A stretch of DNA of 64,000 nucleotides from Leptolyngbya sp. SIO1E4 (GTDB lineage: Bacteria; Cyanobacteriota; Cyanobacteriia; Phormidesmidales; Phormidesmidaceae). Positions 47,979 to 58,453 of the stretch are shown here, piece by piece; the stretch's first letter is position 1, and each line of letters begins with the position of its first letter. The notes beneath the pieces are model-generated. The model was not told the DNA's origin. It did not search any database and was given only the letters and a program-made list of their open reading frames with translations. The position numbers and the translations under genes are program-made. Location: contig JAAHFU020000002.1 of assembly GCA_010672825.2 (NCBI GenBank), forward strand, positions 756,001-820,000, read 5' to 3'.

Positions 47979-49589
47979 CTATTCCGCAAGCGTTAGTTCA
48001 CGAACCAGCGCAATGGGCAGATTCGATTGACTCAGCACCGCCGCATAGGACGGATCTAAATACTGACGATAGGCATTATCCCCAGCCAGATGGGTTTTGA
48101 AAAAAGCTAAACTCATCACCTTCACATAGTGCTGTGCCAACTCAGGGCTAGGCCCAATCACCACCTCAGGCAGCGCTACCGCCTCGGCAGCTTGTGGATC
48201 ATAGATGGTTGAAAAGTGGGTGCCCCCCTCCATGAGCAACAGATAGCGCTCGGGAGATTCTAGCCAAGTAAAGGGGCGAATTTGCTCGGCCAGGGCTGGG
48301 GTGACCGTATCTTCGCTGCCTGAGACAACCATAATTGGCACCGTAATATTCGCCAGCCCCTCAGGGCCAAATACAGCACTATTCAAGGGGTTGATTGCAA
48401 ACGCAGCCTGCACACGACTATCTTGCAAGGCTGGCAACGGCTGGGCCAGGGACGGCACCAAGCATTGCAGCAGTAGCGACAAATTGAGCTGGATAATCTG
48501 GGGAGGGCAGGTTTCCCCTAACACATCAAGGTCAACGGTGGCCCCGGCCAGGGCGAGGGTCGTATAGGCCCCCATCGATTGCCCCAAAACCCCCACTCGT
48601 TGCAGATCTAGACGATTTCTTAAAGCCGGATTACGCTGCACTGCGACCTCTAGCTCATCTAAGAGGCCTTGAATAGCGGTTGGACGGCGAATCATGTCTT
48701 CAGGCTCAACAGCTTCTCGGGCAGCCCCTCCCAACAGCTCAGTGAGCTGAGCAGCACTGCTGCCAGGATGCTCTACCACAGCCACAGCAAACCCATGGGA
48801 GGCCAGATGCTCAGCCAGGTAAGCGAACGTGGCAAGATTGCCGCCGAGCCCGTGGGAAATGACCACCAATGGTAGATTCCGCCCCTGGGGCAGATAGAGT
48901 TCGGTGAGTAAAGGAGCAGGTTCAAAGGTTTGCTGACTCCAGCGATAAGGCCCGCTTGAAGCCAGCACAACTGAAGTATTTAGGGAAAAATCGTTTTCGG
49001 ACTCTATGGCTATTTGGGCTGACTGTTCGCGAATTTGAGCCGTAGTTTCGTAGGTCCGGTTAATCTCTGTGATCACCGCCCTGGCCACGACCAAAAGTCG
49101 CTGCAAATCGACCCGTGCCCCTTGGGTCGGAAAATGCTTTAGCACATTTAGCACGTTGAGCCCACCGTCAGGGTCTGCTGCTGCCAGGATCACCGCACCT
49201 CGAATTGCCCGTGCCCCATTTTGCCGCCCCGCCGTTTGAATCACCCCCCCAAGCCACTGCAAAATCGCTTCGCCCTGGGACGTATAGAGAAACTGAGAAA
49301 CCGTGACGACATCCAAATCAGCACTAATTAGCAGGCCGCTACGAAATTGCTCAAGCTGCTCGGGCGTGAGATAGCGACCGTAAACTTTGAGTTCATCAAC
49401 GAGTTCGCCTGTGCGGGCATAGGTTTCGAGGGTATCGACGGAGATAGAGCGCTCAATCGGCCCAAAGCTAGCGAAAATACGCTCGGCACTCAAACCTGGC
49501 AAGGCTAGCAAAAGAGATTGGAGCAGGCCAACCCCCAGGGAGCCTACTAGAATTCGTGCTCTACGATTTTTCCAAAATCTGATCGGCAT
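47979..49589 (-). CDS. DUF1400-alpha/beta hydrolase, exported
   Basis: A 536-residue protein. From ATG 49589 it has a basic start and signal peptide (RRARILVGSLGVGLLQSLLLALPGLSA), then a DUF1400 region (about 30-150) found almost only in cyanobacteria, then an alpha/beta hydrolase domain with the nucleophile elbow GQSMGAYTTLA and a late His (GGTHFST). It resembles platelet-activating-factor acetylhydrolase/dienelactone hydrolase-like enzymes. Substrate unknown. I reject a TTG start 12 codons upstream for lack of a ribosome-binding site. Confidence 0.87.
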   Translation of the reverse strand: MPIRFWKNRRARILVGSLGVGLLQSLLLALPGLSAERIFASFGPIERSISVDTLETYARTGELVDELKVYGRYLTPEQLEQFRSGLLISADLDVVTVSQFLYTSQGEAILQWLGGVIQTAGRQNGARAIRGAVILAAADPDGGLNVLNVLKHFPTQGARVDLQRLLVVARAVITEINRTYETTAQIREQSAQIAIESENDFSLNTSVVLASSGPYRWSQQTFEPAPLLTELYLPQGRNLPLVVISHGLGGNLATFAYLAEHLASHGFAVAVVEHPGSSAAQLTELLGGAAREAVEPEDMIRRPTAIQGLLDELEVAVQRNPALRNRLDLQRVGVLGQSMGAYTTLALAGATVDLDVLGETCPPQIIQLNLSLLLQCLVPSLAQPLPALQDSRVQAAFAINPLNSAVFGPEGLANITVPIMVVSGSEDTVTPALAEQIRPFTWLESPERYLLLMEGGTHFSTIYDPQAAEAVALPEVVIGPSPELAQHYVKVMSLAFFKTHLAGDNAYRQYLDPSYAAVLSQSNLPIALVRELTLAE

Positions 49590-50078
49590 GAGAGGTGATT
49601 TGTACACAGTGTGAACCAGAGTCAATTAAGAGCGCTTTCACCAGGCAGTAGAAAGATATCAGTCTGATCGCTACTGCTCTTGCATGATGGTTAATTGCAA
49701 GGGCTTCAAGAGGCCCTTCTCAAGTTAGCGCTTAGTGGTGTTAGTGGTAACCAATAAACTGTTTGCATAAGACTTTTATCTATTTAAGAGTGACTTCTAA
49801 TTCAGATCTTAGACAGTGGAGAAGCTTTAGAGGCGATCGCGTCCCTAGTTCAACTGAACAGGGCAATCGCGACGGCTCAGGATGGCTAACCCCAGATTCC
49901 TGGTAAACAGCAACATCGGGTTTGAGCAGTTGAACCCAGAAGCTAGGGGCCTATAGCGGTATGCAGGCTAATCAAGTACACCCTAAACCCCAAACCCTAG
50001 CCCCTGCCTTGACCCAGATGTACTGGACTTACCTGAACAAGGCTGTATACAGGGCTAGGGGAGATTCAACGAGGAGCG
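49590..50078. other. Intergenic region with repeat copy B
   Basis: About 490 bases between the DUF1400 promoter side and the end of devA. It contains full repeat copy B (49951-50049) and, at about 49848-49870, a short partial match to the repeat's right end (TTCAACTGAACAGGGC). No other element was seen. Confidence 0.5.
49951..50049 (+). repeat. Dispersed heptamer repeat family 1, copy B (reference orientation)
   Basis: A full copy of about 97 bases. The left block is TATAGCGGTATGCAGGCTAA then TCAAGTACA; the heptamer block has CCCTAAA, CCCCAAA, CCCTAGC and CCCTGCC; the right block is TTGACCCAGATGTACTGGAC then TTACCTGAACAAGGC. The segments AGTACA and TGTACT flanking the heptamers are complementary, so the RNA could fold the heptamer array into a loop. 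Confidence 0.88.
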
Positions 50079-50783
50079 TTACGGGGTTGCCGCCAGCTCT
50101 GGCTGCCTAGATAAGCGCCCGTCCTCCATGTGGACGATGCGATCGGCAATATCCAGAATGCGATTGTCGTGAGTGACCAGTAAGATCGTGCAGCCTTGCT
50201 GTTTAGCCAGGTCATGCATGATATCGACGACATCTCGCCCTGATTTTTTATCAAGGGCAGCGGTGGGCTCATCAGCCAGCACAACTTTAGGGCAACTGAC
50301 CAGAGCACGGGCGATCGCGACTCGCTGTTTTTGCCCCCCTGACAAGTCAGCTGGCAGGTAATGGATGCGATCGCCTAAACCCACTTGCTCCAGCATTTTG
50401 GTAGCTCGATGGTGGCGCTCTACCTTAGGAAAAATGCCATGCACTTCTAAGCCCATTTGTACATTTTCGAGTGCGGTCAAGCTGCCATGCAAGTTATGCG
50501 CCTGAAAGATATATCCATTATTTCGCCTTGCTTTAACCAGGGAATTTTCATCGGCTTGGCAAAGTTCATGTCCCACAACGTTTAGACTGCCTGTTTGAGC
50601 CGAACGCAAGCCCCCTATCAGGGTCAGAAGGGTGGTTTTACCAGACCCCGAAGGCCCAGTCATTATGATGATCTCACCAGGGAAAATCTCCAGATTAATA
50701 TCGAATAACACCTGTTTTCGGAGCTGTCCTGACCCGAAGTAGTGGTTGAGTTGGTGAACAGAAATAACGGGTTGATCGGTCAT
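50079..50783 (-). CDS. devA: DevA-type ABC exporter ATPase
   Basis: A 234-residue ABC ATPase of the MacB/LolD-like class. Walker A is GPSGSGKTT, the signature is LSGGQKQR, and Walker B is VVLADEPTAAL. MTDQPVISVHQLNHYFGSGQ is the typical DevA start, so ATG 50783 is chosen over an extension of 23 codons. DevA powers the DevB-DevC-TolC exporter, which in heterocystous species exports envelope glycolipids. Here devC is separated from devA by a DUF2235 gene, though all are on the same strand. Confidence 0.92.
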   Translation of the reverse strand: MTDQPVISVHQLNHYFGSGQLRKQVLFDINLEIFPGEIIIMTGPSGSGKTTLLTLIGGLRSAQTGSLNVVGHELCQADENSLVKARRNNGYIFQAHNLHGSLTALENVQMGLEVHGIFPKVERHHRATKMLEQVGLGDRIHYLPADLSGGQKQRVAIARALVSCPKVVLADEPTAALDKKSGRDVVDIMHDLAKQQGCTILLVTHDNRILDIADRIVHMEDGRLSRQPELAATP

Positions 50784-51171
50784 GATTTCGAGGGATTTAG
50801 TCGTGCAGTTAGGGGTTAAGGATTGGGAGTTGGGTTTTATACCAGTTCTCATTTCTAAAGCGACAGATCAGCCCCCTCCCAGTCCCCCCTTTCCAAGGAG
50901 AGGTGCCGCAGGCGGTGAGGCAGCGCTATGTAGCGCTGTTTTGGAGAATTAGGTTTAGGAATGGATCTTTCATTAAAGGAGAAAGGGTCTTTTTATTCAG
51001 AGGAGATGTCTGCCTTCAGTCAGAAAGATTTGGCAAGAAAGCCAGAAGCCGGTACAAGAATGGATTTTAAATTTTGGCATCTGGCTTCTACTTTCAGGAT
51101 GATTTCTCCTCTTCAAAAACATGCCAGGAAATTTATCTCCAGGGCATTTTTTGCTTTGGTGAGACTCAATT
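50784..51171. other. Intergenic region between DUF2235 gene and devA
   Basis: About 390 bases, unusually long for the inside of a devBCA operon. It contains a hairpin CAGCGCTA-TG-TAGCGCTG (50921-50938). A plus-strand reading frame here (50961-51206) has no recognisable family and partly overlaps the DUF2235 gene; I do not support it. Confidence 0.45.
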
Positions 51172-52197
51172 TCACTGAGGAAGCCCGTAGAGTTTGTTGT
51201 AGATAGATTGGGTGTCAGGATACTTGGCAGACAATTCAGGGGTTAGCTGGAGTAATCGCGGCTCTGACAGTTGAGGTTCATTTGAGACTTCTTCGATGAC
51301 AAGTTGACTACGTTCAGGTAGGGGCACACAGCCAGGAAACTCAATCACCTGTTTCGCTTCGTCAAAAAATGAATAGTGAAAAACATCATGGTTACGATGC
51401 TGTCGAGAAGGATCGTCATCTAAATTGTTTTCATCGATCACAACAGGAGCATGGATATCTATCGGATAGTCAAACGTCTCTTTGAGGTTTATGCCTACTG
51501 CCCTGGCTTTCTGTAACATAAAAACCAAGGCAAGATTGGTTCTATTCCGATTGGGCAAACCGTTGCTTAACTCTGAATTTCCACCAATGTCACCATGTCC
51601 TCCTCTAAACCAAACTTCTAGGACATTCTCTCCATAGGCTCTATCAAGCCCAAAGCCAGCTCTTCTGACATCCAATGCCATGGCATGGAAAGTATTTTGA
51701 GCAGATATGGGAATCCGTTCTTGAAAGAAAAGCTCTGTATCATTGAGGGGCATTCCGAAGGATGCCACCGTATCAAACAGTCCAATAAATCTTATGTCTG
51801 GTGGCCCGTTCAACGGTTTTCCCGTTTTATCGACCAGCTCGCTGTAATCTTTGAAGGTTTTATCGGCAAAGGCCCTTGCTAAGGCTGCTCCTCGGCTGTA
51901 GCCAATAATGTCAATGGTTTGATCACCGCTTTTGAAGTGATCTTTCAACTTACGAAAGGCAGCGTTGATGACCCCGGATGCCCCGGCCCCAAACGCGCCT
52001 CCAACGATACGATCCGTTATGCTCACTGAGGAACCCACACCGGGGAAATATTCAGCCTGCATCCCAGCTTTAAGGTATTCGGCATAAAAGAAGACAACAT
52101 TGGTCAGATAACGCCCGTTTTTCGTCTTCGTGGTGGCTGTGATGGGGGACTGAGCATCCCAACGATCGCCGGTTCCATCAAATGCATAAAGTGCCAT
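51172..52197 (-). CDS. DUF2235 alpha/beta hydrolase (phospholipase-like)
   Basis: A 341-residue DUF2235 protein, the family that includes T6SS lipase effectors (Tle1-type) and many uncharacterised bacterial hydrolases. The nucleophile elbow is DIIGYSRGAALARAFA (GxSxG); then come FIGLFDTVASFG and WFRGGHGDIGGN, the usual Asp/His-bearing segments. It lacks a signal peptide. It interrupts the devC-devA order. By eye it is AT-richer than its neighbours and has no complete HIP1 octamer inside, hints of late acquisition. No immunity or T6SS gene is near. Confidence 0.87.
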   Translation of the reverse strand: MALYAFDGTGDRWDAQSPITATTKTKNGRYLTNVVFFYAEYLKAGMQAEYFPGVGSSVSITDRIVGGAFGAGASGVINAAFRKLKDHFKSGDQTIDIIGYSRGAALARAFADKTFKDYSELVDKTGKPLNGPPDIRFIGLFDTVASFGMPLNDTELFFQERIPISAQNTFHAMALDVRRAGFGLDRAYGENVLEVWFRGGHGDIGGNSELSNGLPNRNRTNLALVFMLQKARAVGINLKETFDYPIDIHAPVVIDENNLDDDPSRQHRNHDVFHYSFFDEAKQVIEFPGCVPLPERSQLVIEEVSNEPQLSEPRLLQLTPELSAKYPDTQSIYNKLYGLPQ

Positions 52198-52424: not shown

Positions 52425-53609
52425 CTAGAAAATATCCGCTGGATCGGCAGCTTGAAGTCGGCGGGTGGCGATCGCACCCGAGGCACCACACATGACAAAC
52501 GTGAGAAAGAGAACAAAGACCCCTCGACTCAAAGGCATTGCCAGGGGCAATGCTGTGGCTATAGCTGTCAGCTGATAAGCCCCTAAGGCAATGACCAAAC
52601 CGGGGATAAACCCTAGCACCGATAAAATGAGCGCTTCCTCAAAAATCACCCCGAGTAGATAACTATTGCGATAGCCCATGGCCTTGAAGGTGGCATATTC
52701 TGCCAGGTGACTATTCACATCCGTTGAAAGCACCTGGTAAACAATCACCATCCCCACGATGAAGCCCATGGTTGTCCCCAAACCAAAGACAAAGCCAACG
52801 GGTGAATTCCCTTGGATTTCATTGATTTCAAAATCGACGTAGCCTTGTTTGGTCAGCACCAGCACATCTGCAGGCAATCGAGTGGCTAAGGTCGTTCTTA
52901 CCAGCTCTGGATCATAGCCCGGCTGCAGATGAATTAGCCCGATACTCACGGCCCCCGCTTCACGCCCGGGAAATAACCGTAAAAAGTTTTGGTCGCTGGT
53001 AATCAGGGCACCATCATCTGCAAAGGAGGCCCCTACTGTGAATAGTCCGGCGACGGTCACGGTTCGCAAGCCAATTTCCGTCGTCACGGATTCCCCTTGG
53101 TTAACCTGGGCGATCATCTCCTGATAGTCTCCGCGTGAGGCTTGATCAAACAAAACATGATCTGGTAGGTGAATCGCGTTTAGCTGCTGGTTGACTTCAG
53201 GCAGGGTGAGCGCCGGTCGATGAGGGTTTTGCCCCACAATCAACATTGAGGTCTCTTTACGGGTTTGGGGATTTCGCCAGTCTACGGAGCCGACGTAGAG
53301 GGCATCAGCAGCGGCCACCCCTGGCACATCTTGGGCCTGATAAAGTCGCCGCCGGGTAAAGGTTCGCAGTTGCCCAAAGTTTTTAGCCTGATTACTGATG
53401 AGGATGATGTCTGCTTCTATGCTGCGGGGATATTGAGTGTTGGTGGTGAAGAGCGCATCGGCAAAGCCTAGCTGCATAAAAATTAAAACGTCGGCAAAGG
53501 TAATGCCTGCGATCGCAGTCAGTAGCCGGATGGGGTCATGCTTTAACTGCAGCAGCCCCAAGGCCGTGCGTTCTTGTAGGGTTTTGAATGTTTGGACGAA
53601 GCCCAGCAT
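52425..53609 (-). CDS. devC: DevC-type ABC exporter permease
   Basis: A 394-residue MacB/FtsX-like permease with an N-terminal helix (about 25-48), a large periplasmic domain (about 50-270) and three C-terminal helices (about 280-375). The stretches LQERTALGLLQLKHDPIRLL and SHLAEYATFKAMGYRNSYLL are characteristic of DevC. It works with the membrane-fusion protein DevB encoded 15 bases upstream and with the ATPase DevA. The DUF2235 gene lies 227 bases downstream, between it and devA. Confidence 0.93.
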   Translation of the reverse strand: MLGFVQTFKTLQERTALGLLQLKHDPIRLLTAIAGITFADVLIFMQLGFADALFTTNTQYPRSIEADIILISNQAKNFGQLRTFTRRRLYQAQDVPGVAAADALYVGSVDWRNPQTRKETSMLIVGQNPHRPALTLPEVNQQLNAIHLPDHVLFDQASRGDYQEMIAQVNQGESVTTEIGLRTVTVAGLFTVGASFADDGALITSDQNFLRLFPGREAGAVSIGLIHLQPGYDPELVRTTLATRLPADVLVLTKQGYVDFEINEIQGNSPVGFVFGLGTTMGFIVGMVIVYQVLSTDVNSHLAEYATFKAMGYRNSYLLGVIFEEALILSVLGFIPGLVIALGAYQLTAIATALPLAMPLSRGVFVLFLTFVMCGASGAIATRRLQAADPADIF

Positions 53610-53624
53610 GGTGGCTATTTCCCA

Positions 53625-54830
53625 TTAGTTGGTTTGAACGGTGACCGTAACCTGTAAATTAGTGAGCCCTGCAACGATTTGGCTAGAAGCTGGATCAAGG
53701 CGAACATGAACCTCCACCACCCTGGCATCCAGGTTGGCAGCGGGGTCTTCGTCAACAACCTGCTGCTGCTCGACTTGTAAGCCAATGCGTTCAACCGTGC
53801 CCTGAAGGGAATCGGGAATAGCGGTTGCGGTAATGGTGGCAGATTGACCGACTTCAATCTGGGAAATATCGCTTTCGTAGATCTCAGCGATCGCCATCAT
53901 TTGCCCAGTCTCTCCCAGGGTGGCAATGCCCTCATCACCAACGATTTCACCCGGGCGGGTATGAATGTCAATGATTTGGCCTGCAAGCGGTGATTTCACC
54001 GAAGCCTGATCTAGATTGGCCTGAGCTTCAGCCACCGCTGCGATCGCAGATTGCACTTCTGCTGCCGCCGCTGCCACATCTACCGGACGCACCTCCGCAA
54101 TTTGCTCGAAGGTGGCTTCAGCCTGCTGAATTTGTTGTTGGCTGGTCGTTTCAATCCGCGATAACTCCGCTTGCGCCTCTTGCCGTCGCCGTTCAGCCGT
54201 GGTGTAGGTCAACTTGTTGGTGTCTCGCTCAGAGGCGGAAACAGCCCCCTGCTGATAGAGCGATTCATAGCGGCTATATTCAACGCGGGCAGTTTGTTCT
54301 TCAGCCTCTAACCGAGCCACAGTGGCGCGTTGAGCCTCTAGCTGAGTGGTGCGATCTGCTCGCAGTCGGGCAATTTCAGCCTCCTGAGCGTCTAATTCAC
54401 CCGTCTGTGCACCCGCTTCTACCTGAGCGAGCTGTGCCTGGGCCACGCGCACTTGCTCTTCAGCGCGTTGCAAGGCGGCCTCTAAGAGGGCGCGGTTGTC
54501 CAAAATGGCGACGACCTGACCGGCTTCAACGCGATCGCCTTCCTGCACCAACAGCTGATCGATGCGGCTTTCTTGCACTGAGGTGGGCGGTGTGAGCTCA
54601 ATCATCTCCCCTGCGGGTTCTAAACGCCCCAGTGCAGTCACCGTTGAAATTTCAGACGCCAAAGCAGCCGCAGCTTCCGCCTCTGTCTCTTGCACTTGCA
54701 TGATTCGAAATTGTCGGATCCGCCAAGCGGCAAAGCCCGTGATGCCGAGGATAACGACGCCTGCGATCGCCAGCCAACGACGGGGCGATTTCGCCGAGGA
54801 TGCTTGATGGGTCAGCACATCTCCATTCAT
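53625..54830 (-). CDS. devB: DevB-type membrane fusion protein (HlyD family)
   Basis: A 401-residue periplasmic adaptor. One N-terminal membrane helix (about 19-36) is followed by a lipoyl half (GRLEPAGEMIELTPP), a long coiled-coil hairpin (about 110-260, rich in Glu/Ala/Gln) and the second lipoyl/beta-barrel part (SPLAGQIIDIHTRPGEIV). It bridges DevC to a TolC-type outer-membrane channel. It opens the devBC operon and is preceded by a near-consensus promoter embedded in a long inverted repeat. Confidence 0.93.
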   Translation of the reverse strand: MNGDVLTHQASSAKSPRRWLAIAGVVILGITGFAAWRIRQFRIMQVQETEAEAAAALASEISTVTALGRLEPAGEMIELTPPTSVQESRIDQLLVQEGDRVEAGQVVAILDNRALLEAALQRAEEQVRVAQAQLAQVEAGAQTGELDAQEAEIARLRADRTTQLEAQRATVARLEAEEQTARVEYSRYESLYQQGAVSASERDTNKLTYTTAERRRQEAQAELSRIETTSQQQIQQAEATFEQIAEVRPVDVAAAAAEVQSAIAAVAEAQANLDQASVKSPLAGQIIDIHTRPGEIVGDEGIATLGETGQMMAIAEIYESDISQIEVGQSATITATAIPDSLQGTVERIGLQVEQQQVVDEDPAANLDARVVEVHVRLDPASSQIVAGLTNLQVTVTVQTN

Positions 54831-54858
54831 AGGCTTTTCCCAGAGAAGGATTGCTTAC

Positions 54859-54913
54859 GCTTATCATACTAAACCGTTCAGTATTGTCAACCGAACGGTT
54901 TAGTATGATAAGC
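54859..54913 (-). promoter_or_regulatory. Promoter of devB inside a 21-bp perfect inverted repeat (likely TetR-type operator)
   Basis: Arms at 54859-54879 and 54893-54913 are exact reverse complements, separated by 13 bases; core arm sequence is TTATCATACTAAACCGTTC. On the minus strand a -35 TTGACA (54890-54885), a 16-base spacer and a -10 TATGAT (54868-54863) lie within it, so a protein bound to the arms would block RNA polymerase. Two ACCG-N2-type half-palindromes (ACCGTTCAGT and ACCGAACGGT) resemble TetR-family operators. Confidence 0.8.
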
Positions 54914-54980
54914 ATCTGAATTTTATGGAGGGTTATGAAGGGGTGGGCTGTCCCAGACTCTTCAACTCCCCGCCCTTCTT

Positions 54981-55074
54981 GTAGCGGTATGCAGGCTGAT
55001 CAAGTACACCCTAGACCCCAAACCCTAGACCCTGTCTCAGCCAAGATGTACCGGACTCAACTGAACAGAGCCAT
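54981..55074 (+). repeat. Dispersed heptamer repeat family 1, copy C
   Basis: A full copy in the same orientation as copy B: GTAGCGGTATGCAGGCTGA, TCAAGTACA, heptamers CCCTAGA, CCCCAAA, CCCTAGA, CCCTGTC, then TCAGCCAAGATGTACCGGAC and TCAACTGAACAGAGCC. It lies between the devB control region and the end of the GH13 gene. Confidence 0.88.
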
Positions 55075-55216
55075 AACTCTGGAATAGCGTTCGCCTACGT
55101 CTTTTACGTAGATGTCCAGATGTTTGAGACGACAAAGCTCACATGATTCGACAGTTGCTGGAGACGGCCAAATTCGTTATCCCAAGCAGCACCCCGCAGA
55201 CTCATCTCAATGAAAT

Positions 55217-57088
55217 CTATCGAGCAACCATCTGTTCTAATTCAGTAAACGGAATCAGCCAGGCAACGTCATAGGGATGGAGGTTTACGATAAGGGTTTC
55301 ATCCTTCGCTAACCAGCCCCGTTGTTTTACCAGGTCATACCATTGAGTTTCCATACAGACCAAATCCACGAGGGAGATGGCCAGCGAAATTTCCCTATTG
55401 GTCACGTTGGTCAACGTTAAGATGTGCTGGTCTTCGTTTGGGGAAACACGCCACACGGCAAAAACCTCGGGCGCCAACATCAGAATTTCCTGGCGGCCAT
55501 TGGGATGAAAGGCAGCATATTGTCTCCGCAGGAACAGCAAGTTGCCAAACTGGTGGGTAATTTGCCACACTTTTGACTTGGGATTTTGGCCCATTTCAAT
55601 CAGGTCTTGAGCCACAAGGGCGGGTCGATTAATATCGCGCTTTGTTTTGGTCTGCAAAACCTTGGCCACATCATTACTGGTACCCATAAGGCCATGGAAG
55701 TAGATGCCAGGCACCCCCCGTAGAACCAGCGCAATGGAGCGAGAGGCAACATATCGTTTGACTTCTAAAGTCAGAGTTTCGGTACCGTTCCCCAGATTTA
55801 GCGCACTAAACCAGGTCGTGTTCATTTCGTAGGCTTCCTCTTGACCGCTTTGCCCGGTTTTATAAGAGATGAAGGCTCCATGTTGGCGGGCCGTTTGAAT
55901 TAAAAAGTCAATTTCTGCTTGAGGCAAAACATTCTTAATGCCCATGAGCCCAATGCCATCGTGGGTATCCAGAATATTGAAGAAGGTCGTGGTGGAAGAA
56001 GGATACTGCAGATTCTTTGCCCAGTTGCTCAAGGCCGTCGTATTGCTGCGGTAAAAGGTATAAAGCACCAGTGGCGGCAGCGCAAAGTTGTACACCATTT
56101 GCGCCTCATCGGTTCCATCTCCAAAGTAAGAGATGTTTTCCTCGTGGGGCACATTTGTCTCGGTGATGATGGCAACTGCAGGTGCCACAACTTCCAAAAC
56201 TTTTCGAAAAAGTTTGACCACTTCGTGGGTCTGCTCTAGGCTCGCACATGAGGTGCCTGGCTCTTCCCATAGGTAGGTCACAGCATCTAAACGAATGATG
56301 TCGGCCCCGTGGCGAACATAAATCAGCAGCGTTTCAAGCACATAAAGCAATACCTGAGGATTACGGAAGTTGAGATCAATTTGGTCCGGTGAGAACGTCG
56401 TCCAGACCCAAATTGGACCATCAATAGACTGGAATTGCGTCAATACATCTGATGTTCTAGGGCGAACAATCAGGGCTCGCTGTTCGGGCGTCAACTCGTC
56501 AGGAGAGCGATAAACGGTAAACGTATCTTCATACAAGGGGTTGCCATTCAACATTTCTTGAAAGGCTTCACTTTCAGCTGAGACGTGGTTGAAAACCGCA
56601 TCAAACATAAGCTGAAATTTCCCATTCAGCGCTTCAATGTCTTGCCAAGAACCTAGTTTAGGATCGACAGCTCTAAAGTCTTGAACTGAGAACCCACGGT
56701 CAGATGAGTATGGGAAAAATGGTAAAATATGTAGGGTATTAATAATTTCTCTAAGCTTTGGAAGCGTATTCAGAAAATTAGCCAATGTTTCTAAAGGATG
56801 AGAGTCTTTTCCTTGTAGTAAGTCTCCATATGTGATGAGGATAATATCTTGTTCGGTAAAGCGATTTTCGGGATTGAGTGTTCGTTCTGCCTCGATGAGT
56901 TCTGGAGGTTTAAAGGCCCAGTGAACGGTCATAATGCGCTTTAACTCTGGCATCCAGTGGGCAGCAGTCTCTTTACCGTAGAGTTTATGCAGGCAATCAA
57001 AGATCGCTTTCTCGATCTCTGAGGAGAGCTGAAACTGAGGTCGCGTGTAATCTGGTTTCGTACTATAGGGAATAGAAAATATATTCAT
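55217..57088 (-). CDS. GH13 subfamily 18-type sugar phosphorylase (sucrose/glucosylglycerate/glucosylglycerol phosphorylase-like)
   Basis: A 623-residue (alpha/beta)8 glycosidase-fold enzyme close to sucrose phosphorylases. Catalytic residues are the nucleophile D268 (IIRLDAVTYLW), acid/base E310 (ITETNVPHEEN) and D377 in DTHDGIG. HILPFFPYSSDRGFSV and DEAQMVYNFALPPL are hallmarks of the GH13_18 group. Such enzymes split an alpha-glucoside with phosphate; in cyanobacteria the likely substrates are sucrose or the compatible solutes glucosylglycerol and glucosylglycerate. Specificity cannot be set by eye. Family 1 repeats flank it on both sides. Confidence 0.9.
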   Translation of the reverse strand: MNIFSIPYSTKPDYTRPQFQLSSEIEKAIFDCLHKLYGKETAAHWMPELKRIMTVHWAFKPPELIEAERTLNPENRFTEQDIILITYGDLLQGKDSHPLETLANFLNTLPKLREIINTLHILPFFPYSSDRGFSVQDFRAVDPKLGSWQDIEALNGKFQLMFDAVFNHVSAESEAFQEMLNGNPLYEDTFTVYRSPDELTPEQRALIVRPRTSDVLTQFQSIDGPIWVWTTFSPDQIDLNFRNPQVLLYVLETLLIYVRHGADIIRLDAVTYLWEEPGTSCASLEQTHEVVKLFRKVLEVVAPAVAIITETNVPHEENISYFGDGTDEAQMVYNFALPPLVLYTFYRSNTTALSNWAKNLQYPSSTTTFFNILDTHDGIGLMGIKNVLPQAEIDFLIQTARQHGAFISYKTGQSGQEEAYEMNTTWFSALNLGNGTETLTLEVKRYVASRSIALVLRGVPGIYFHGLMGTSNDVAKVLQTKTKRDINRPALVAQDLIEMGQNPKSKVWQITHQFGNLLFLRRQYAAFHPNGRQEILMLAPEVFAVWRVSPNEDQHILTLTNVTNREISLAISLVDLVCMETQWYDLVKQRGWLAKDETLIVNLHPYDVAWLIPFTELEQMVAR

Positions 57089-57418: not shown

Positions 57419-57512
57419 TTGAGTCCAGTACAGCTTGGCCGAGACCGGAGCTAGGGTCTGGGGTCTAGGGTCTGGGGTCTAGGGTGTAGTTGATCCGAAT
57501 GCAGGCCGCTCT
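57419..57512 (-). repeat. Dispersed heptamer repeat family 1, copy D (expanded heptamers)
   Basis: An inverted, more diverged copy. On the minus strand the heptamer block contains five units alternating CCCTAGA and CCCCAGA, two more than the usual array. The left block (GCGGCCTGCATTCGGA, TCAACTACA) and the right block (TCGGCCAAGCTGTACTGGAC) are recognisable; the distal end is missing. Confidence 0.82.
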
Positions 57513-57544: not shown

Positions 57545-57580
57545 CCCCCTAAATCCCCCAATGCTGGGGGATTTAGGGGG
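57545..57580. repeat. Perfect palindromic hairpin with C-rich arm
   Basis: Arm CCCCCTAAATCCCCCA (57545-57560) and its exact reverse complement (57565-57580) enclose a four-base loop ATGC. This matches a C/G-rich palindromic element that I recall as widely scattered between genes in filamentous cyanobacteria. No T-run follows. Confidence 0.9.
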
Positions 57581-57781
57581 CGTTTAGGATTGATGCAAGC
57601 GGTTTATTGAAGGGTTAAAGCCGCTGAGATCACAGCATCCTTTCTAGATAATGAACCTCAACCGAATGCGCTACCGATGATTAAACCAGTGATTAATACA
57701 ATCAGCATTGGCTCGCGGGCTTTCTTCGCCTGACGATTAGACTTGAGAGAGCCTGCTCGCGTGCTTGATGGAATCTGCTAC

Positions 57782-58453
57782 ATGAATTTTTCAGCCCAAC
57801 CGAAGTCGTTCGAACAATCCAGCCACAGTAAACCAGACAAAGCAAAGATTATTCTGGCAGGGGCATTGGAAGTATTTATCACCCATGGATACTCGGCTGC
57901 CAGCATGGATCGCATTGCATCGGCAGCGGGGGTGTCTAAATCAACGCTATATAGTTACTTTCAAGACAAGGAGCGGCTATTTGTCGCGGTTATTCAGCAA
58001 TTTACCCTGAACAACCATCAAATAATGTTCAGTTTGCTGACGGATCCGGATTTGCAAGATCCGCCTGAAAAAGTGCTGCATCAGATAGCCACTTCGGTTC
58101 TCAAAGGGTTTGCGGAAAACCGACCACTCCCAACGTTGATGCGATTAGTTATCGGCGAGTCTGAGCGGTTCCCTGAATTAGCACAGACATTTGTGCGTGA
58201 AATTCAAAAACCCCTGTTGGAACAACTCAGCGGGTACCTGGCCTCTCAACCTCAGCTCAAATTGTCTGACCCCATGGTGACAGCCAGGATGTTTGCAGGA
58301 TCGCTGGTGCATTACCTCATTGTTCAAGAAATTATGCATGGCAGCGAGATTGTCCCCATGGAACGAGAGCGCATGGTGGATGGCCTAGTGAGCCTGATCA
58401 CGACCGTAGACAGAAGCGATCGCAAAGATGATGGCCATTCGGTTAAGGCTTAG
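57782..58453 (+). CDS. TetR/AcrR family transcriptional regulator
   Basis: A 223-residue repressor-type protein. The helix-turn-helix lies at about 17-60 of the mature frame (KIILAGALEVFITHGYSAASMDRIASAAGVSKSTLYSYF), followed by an all-helical ligand-binding C-terminal domain. I start at ATG 57782 (MNFSAQ) rather than 13 codons upstream. The protein is a plausible regulator of devBC, whose promoter about 3 kb away is buried in an inverted repeat with TetR-type half-sites; this pairing is inference. The 3' end overlaps the response regulator gene by 4 bases, tail to tail. Confidence 0.9.
   Translation: MNFSAQPKSFEQSSHSKPDKAKIILAGALEVFITHGYSAASMDRIASAAGVSKSTLYSYFQDKERLFVAVIQQFTLNNHQIMFSLLTDPDLQDPPEKVLHQIATSVLKGFAENRPLPTLMRLVIGESERFPELAQTFVREIQKPLLEQLSGYLASQPQLKLSDPMVTARMFAGSLVHYLIVQEIMHGSEIVPMERERMVDGLVSLITTVDRSDRKDDGHSVKA

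Follow-up and report, generated by a model that had tools for sequence, protein, structure and literature searches.

The 64,000-nt stretch of DNA analysed here (the window) carries on its minus strand a cluster of ABC exporter genes comprising devB (membrane fusion protein; 53625..54830), devC (permease; 52425..53609) and devA (ATPase; 50079..50852). The three proteins, encoded close together on one strand, score above the curated NCBIfam cut-offs for a DevBCA exporter (TIGR02971, 345 bits with a cut-off of 129; TIGR01185, 452 bits with a cut-off of 290; TIGR02982, 361 bits with a cut-off of 296, respectively). In the window devC and devA are separated by a Tle1-like gene (51172-52197, minus strand) whose product has a hydrolase domain of the T6SS phospholipase type (PF09994), whereas in the relatives G009 and G046 these two genes are close together. 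The probable last gene of the cluster (47979..49625, minus strand) encodes a DUF1400-type alpha/beta hydrolase with homologues at other loci that contain the operator described below. It is 66% identical to a protein of G055 (locus L185) that has an exact operator upstream, and in G046 (L180) a homologue is located directly 3' of devA. The occurrence of homologues with their own operator, or behind devA, supports the inclusion of the window DUF1400 gene in the same regulon.

On the plus strand, at 57779..58453, is a gene for a TetR-family regulator, the proposed repressor of the cluster. Its ATG at 57779 bears out the original prediction, which had noted a TetR gene 2.9 kb from the inverted repeat considered here. 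The protein contains the N-terminal helix-turn-helix of the family (TetR_N, PF00440; 64.9 bits, cut-off 24) and an AefR-like, ligand-binding C-terminal domain (TetR_C_7, PF14246; 49.9 bits, cut-off 22). Among its close relatives none was found to be solved or characterised, the best PDB match (6g87, E value 4.5e-18) covering part of the protein.

The inverted repeat and the devB promoter

Upstream of devB, at 54859..54913 (no strand assigned), is an inverted repeat with 21-bp arms (54859-54879 and 54893-54913) that match each other exactly as reverse complements across a 13-nt spacer; when one mismatch is allowed the arms lengthen to 24 nt and the spacer is reduced to 7 nt. No other perfect inverted repeat in the window is as long, the runner-up being 16 bp, and in ten dinucleotide-shuffled versions of the window the maximum length of perfect arms was 9-12 bp, with none exceeding 12 bp. 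A promoter consensus search identified, on the minus strand, a -35 box TTGACA (54885..54890) and a -10 box TATGAT (54863..54868) separated by 16 nt. This devB promoter, predicted by consensus only, displays 11 of 12 consensus matches and is the sole promoter-like match in 54700-55220, where 0.6 would be expected. Transcription is predicted to start near 54856, some 7 nt below the -10 box, and the first base of the devB start codon is 54830 on the minus strand. The original prediction had described the exact 21-base arms and 13-base spacer, a minus-strand promoter lying fully inside the element and a predicted transcription start just outside it, and on each of these points the present analysis agrees. 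A mirror copy of the -10 box, TATGAT in the opposite direction (54904..54909, plus strand), is possibly a relic of a divergent tetR promoter, the regulator gene being divergent from devB in relatives.

Although the original prediction regarded the element as one large site, it is better read, from the word shared with related promoters, as two 15-bp palindromes with the consensus ACTAAAC-N-GTTTAGT. The predicted promoter-proximal operator, ACTGAACGGTTTAGT (54868..54882, minus strand), has one mismatch to ACTAAACNGTTTAGT, fills the spacer between the -35 and -10 boxes and touches the latter. The predicted promoter-distal operator, ACTAAACCGTTCGGT (54890..54904, minus strand), has two mismatches to the same word, and overlaps the -35 box by a single base, the last of the operator and the first of the box; the centres of the two operators are 22 bp apart. 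In each operator the outer half is intact and the inner half degenerate, and TATGAT is present at both outer ends of the pair, so that the pair resembles a single long perfect repeat. The ACCG-type half-sites initially proposed belong to the inner, degenerate part of the pair, in the wrong register with respect to the word conserved across relatives. The 10-mer TAAACCGTTC, which had been suggested as a key for searching the genome, occurs at 14 places in 8.2 Mb compared with 36 in the reversed control; the sequence is not rare and is therefore a poor search key. A second search word, AAACCGNNCNGTNT, also in the wrong register, was rejected as it returned hundreds of matches, with the control higher. 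The entire 55-bp element occurs once in its own genome, and a search with it across the family matched only the window because the long arms are not conserved.

Conservation of the site with tetR-devB pairs

A search for the DevB and TetR proteins covered 95 whole genomes of relatives, and 43 DevB hits were compared. A divergent TetR homolog was present on the same contig as devB in 30 of these hits, the window's included. The closest relatives encode both proteins with 55-67% identity to those of the window, mostly with 127-310 bp between the two genes, and their intergenic regions share one common word, ACTAAAC-N-GTTTAGT. Indeed the site, with no more than two mismatches, was found in all 29 TetR-linked devB loci examined besides that of the window. 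It is usually double, with centres 21-22 or ~29-35 bp apart, approximately two or three helical turns; one locus (L147, G083:C368) contains four exact 15-mer copies between tetR and devB. A related-locus search returned four loci, and in one of them, L063, devB is preceded by an exact site. When the best match to the 15-mer was taken in each promoter, the mean number of mismatches was 0.65 in 23 linked promoters and 5.4 in shuffled promoters, only 0.13% of the latter reaching two mismatches or fewer. The site was absent from devB promoters without a linked TetR (5-6 mismatches), these four promoters being the sole negative control. It should be emphasized that the relatives are not independent samples in these comparisons.

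The position of the site is also conserved. In the window and its close relatives an operator lies inside the 16-nt spacer of a promoter with 9-11 of 12 consensus matches, and the order -35, operator, -10 is constant, while the long arms are often imperfect in relatives and the 15-mer is kept. The computations show a pair of operators placed on the devB promoter, and conservation of the site both with tetR-devB pairs and with tolC. The palindrome is conserved with the regulator gene and overlaps the promoter, as is typical of TetR operators; adjacency or autoregulation of the regulator, which is usual and not required, is seen in the relatives and not in the window. The central claim of the original prediction, a TetR operator that encloses the devB promoter, is therefore supported by the conserved divergent pairs, by the presence of the site in every linked promoter examined and not in the four unlinked ones, and by its recurrence at a TolC-like gene.

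The distance between tetR and devB in the window, 2949 bp, compares with ~1.8 kb in G091 and G013, where an FAD monooxygenase gene is the first of the operon, and 127-661 bp, mostly 127-360 bp, in the others. It reflects an intervening sucrose-phosphorylase-like gene of the alpha-amylase family (55217..57088, minus strand), which is not at this position in the relatives examined and is flanked by two copies of a dispersed repeat identified by repeat search, the left at 54983..55060 and the right, inverted relative to the left, at 57419..57510 (no strand assigned to either). This repeat, ~80-100 bp long, is present in the genome in some 40 or more copies. From the adjacency of the two genes in relatives, and with no intermediate seen, the sucrose-phosphorylase-like gene looks as if it was inserted between devB and tetR. 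Ancestrally, tetR was adjacent to devB and probably autoregulated. No operator is left at the window tetR itself, the site having stayed with devB. A perfect 16-bp inverted repeat, CCCCCTAAATCCCCCA / TGGGGGATTTAGGGGG, is present upstream of tetR at 57545-57580.

Proposed repression and competing explanations

The element is most probably a double operator of the TetR encoded at 57779-58453, placed over the devB promoter such that bound dimers would repress devBCA and a ligand would induce it; the binding itself, repression, the involvement of two dimers and their release are all inferred. In this model one TetR dimer would occupy each 15-bp palindrome, with both operators filled. As the proximal operator lies between the -35 and -10 boxes and the distal operator abuts the -35 box, RNA polymerase would be kept off the promoter, and its exclusion would silence devB, devC and devA, and probably also the DUF1400 hydrolase gene. 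A ligand, presumably the exported compound or a precursor of it, would release the TetR and switch on export, and the pump and a TolC-like exit duct may be induced together.

The identity of the protein that binds the site is informed by the relationships among the TetRs. The window TetR falls within a supported clade of 19 devB-linked TetRs, each of which adjoins the site except the window's own. It could be argued that the main protein at the site is another TetR, or that both bind, such that the window TetR is a partner or a leftover. An example is the RNase III-linked paralog in the window's genome (C2:13304; 42% identical), whose recognition helix is similar; the clade of this paralog neighbours an autoregulating one with the same site at its own promoters, and cross-binding is thus possible. 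Some genomes with the site before tolC, moreover, contain the paralog-type clade and no devB-linked TetR. The membership of the window TetR in the devB-linked, site-adjacent clade, however, argues against this proposal, as does the absence of the site from the own promoters of RNase III-linked TetR paralogs in six of six cases, and we consider it unlikely, although it deserves some weight. A further clade, with the different recognition helix KITIYKHF, has a variant of the site, ACTATACGGT(A/G/T)TAGT, at its own promoters, which in five related sequences is ACTATACGGTATAGT or close to it. The combination of a different helix with a variant site links the protein to the site, as expected if both change together, and this apparent co-change is suggestive.

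Repression, rather than activation, is deduced from the position of the sites and the habit of the family. Some TetR proteins activate transcription, and the best NCBIfam match of the window TetR is to the activator FasR, though with a score far below the cut-off. The operators, however, lie between and over the -35 and -10 boxes, where binding normally hinders the polymerase, and a role as activator or dual regulator is accordingly very improbable. The perfect 21-bp arms might also be thought to form a DNA cruciform, an RNA hairpin or a terminator. Such a structure is scarcely plausible, since the element is upstream of the predicted transcription start, is followed by no run of T, was not called as a terminator, and the long arms are often imperfect in relatives in which the 15-mer persists. 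A chance palindrome or the end of a mobile element, for which the dispersed repeats nearby might be invoked, has next to no likelihood, as no shuffled sequence reached 13-bp arms, the genome contains the complete element only once, and conservation at orthologous positions refutes it.

A probable wider regulon and known efflux systems

Across the 95 genomes the exact 15-mer was found 54 times, in 38 of them, compared with 6 times for the reversed control. When these sites were sorted, by fetched loci or, for sites not fetched, by coordinates alone, 24 flank tetR and/or devB and 19 precede a gene for a TolC-like outer-membrane efflux protein (OEP). A DUF1400 hydrolase gene follows two of the others and a response regulator another two, and the remaining seven are elsewhere. 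At a tolerance of one mismatch, the window's genome has only three matches (we estimate ~1 by chance; the reversed control gave 0). These are the devB operator, a site in the intergenic region of a TolC-like OEP gene and its DUF512 neighbour (L128), and a third located ~410 bp ahead of the gene for a group 2 sigma factor. The positions of the devB and TolC-like sites are conserved in other genera, and the TolC-like OEP gene that carries the site repeatedly adjoins the DUF512 gene, in the window's genome included. The palindrome near the sigma-factor gene (L296, 2241-2255) recurs ~360-480 bp upstream of it in five genomes (the window's and four relatives), but its surroundings are also conserved more widely, which makes this site weak evidence. 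A weaker, two-mismatch site is found 70 bp before a devB paralog in the window's genome, and the orthologs in G022 and G036 have one mismatch. Another two-mismatch site precedes an AcrA-AcrB-type operon (C2:1514311); the other two-mismatch sites in this genome were rejected as operators, being mostly in or near unrelated genes and probably due to chance.

The regulon is thus likely, judging from these sites, to include the TolC-channel gene and the devB paralog, and to be wider than the original prediction, which considered devB alone. The presence of the operator before both genes suggests joint induction of the pump and its exit duct. We lean, with modest conviction, towards a broader scheme that spans many genera, where TetR proteins act through the operator ACTAAACNGTTTAGT to coordinate devBCA with the DUF1400 hydrolase, a second devB-type exporter, a common TolC-like channel and perhaps the group 2 sigma factor. 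The open literature searched contained no description of the operator, or of a TetR regulon that joins devBCA with tolC; subscription journals and RegPrecise, which were outside its scope, may do so.

Control of efflux through a palindromic operator is of a standard kind, exemplified by TetR/AcrR-family repressors of efflux genes such as AcrR, QacR and TtgR. The system described here resembles these in its TetR_N helix-turn-helix, in the palindromic operator over the promoter and, in relatives, in a regulator divergent from the export operon. It differs in that the window's tetR lies apart from its operator. The word ACTAAACNGTTTAGT was not found in connection with TetR in the open papers searched.

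DevBCA-HgdD exporters, in which HgdD is the TolC partner, are known from Anabaena sp. PCC 7120, where the heterocyst glycolipids are exported by devBCA and paralogs have a role in drug resistance (PMC8277102, PMC6161253). The window's DevB, DevC and DevA, assigned by their NCBIfam scores, are similar, and a gene for a TolC-like partner is present with a common operator. The window exporter is assigned to the family by score, and its substrate may differ from the glycolipids of Anabaena. None of the open papers searched describes control of devBCA by a TetR. In Synechocystis, PrqR is a TetR repressor of the multidrug efflux gene prqA (PMC5007503), and thus also a cyanobacterial TetR at an efflux gene; in contrast, PrqA is a pump of the MATE type, and the predicted PrqR site, ATTTGTTTTTTCATA, is unlike ACTAAAC-N-GTTTAGT.

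Little is known of how this widespread family of cyanobacterial exporters is controlled outside heterocysts, and the present study provides a concrete candidate operator for it, together with the prediction that induction of the pump is accompanied by that of the outer-membrane channel. A search for the inducer, and thence for the exported substrate, could make use of this operator, which may possibly also find application in cyanobacteria as a regulated promoter part. A gene for an FAD-dependent monooxygenase heads the devBCA operon directly behind the operator pair in G091 and G013 (L177, 2954-4507; L178, 5246-6835), and its presence there may be a hint that the inducer is aromatic or drug-like.
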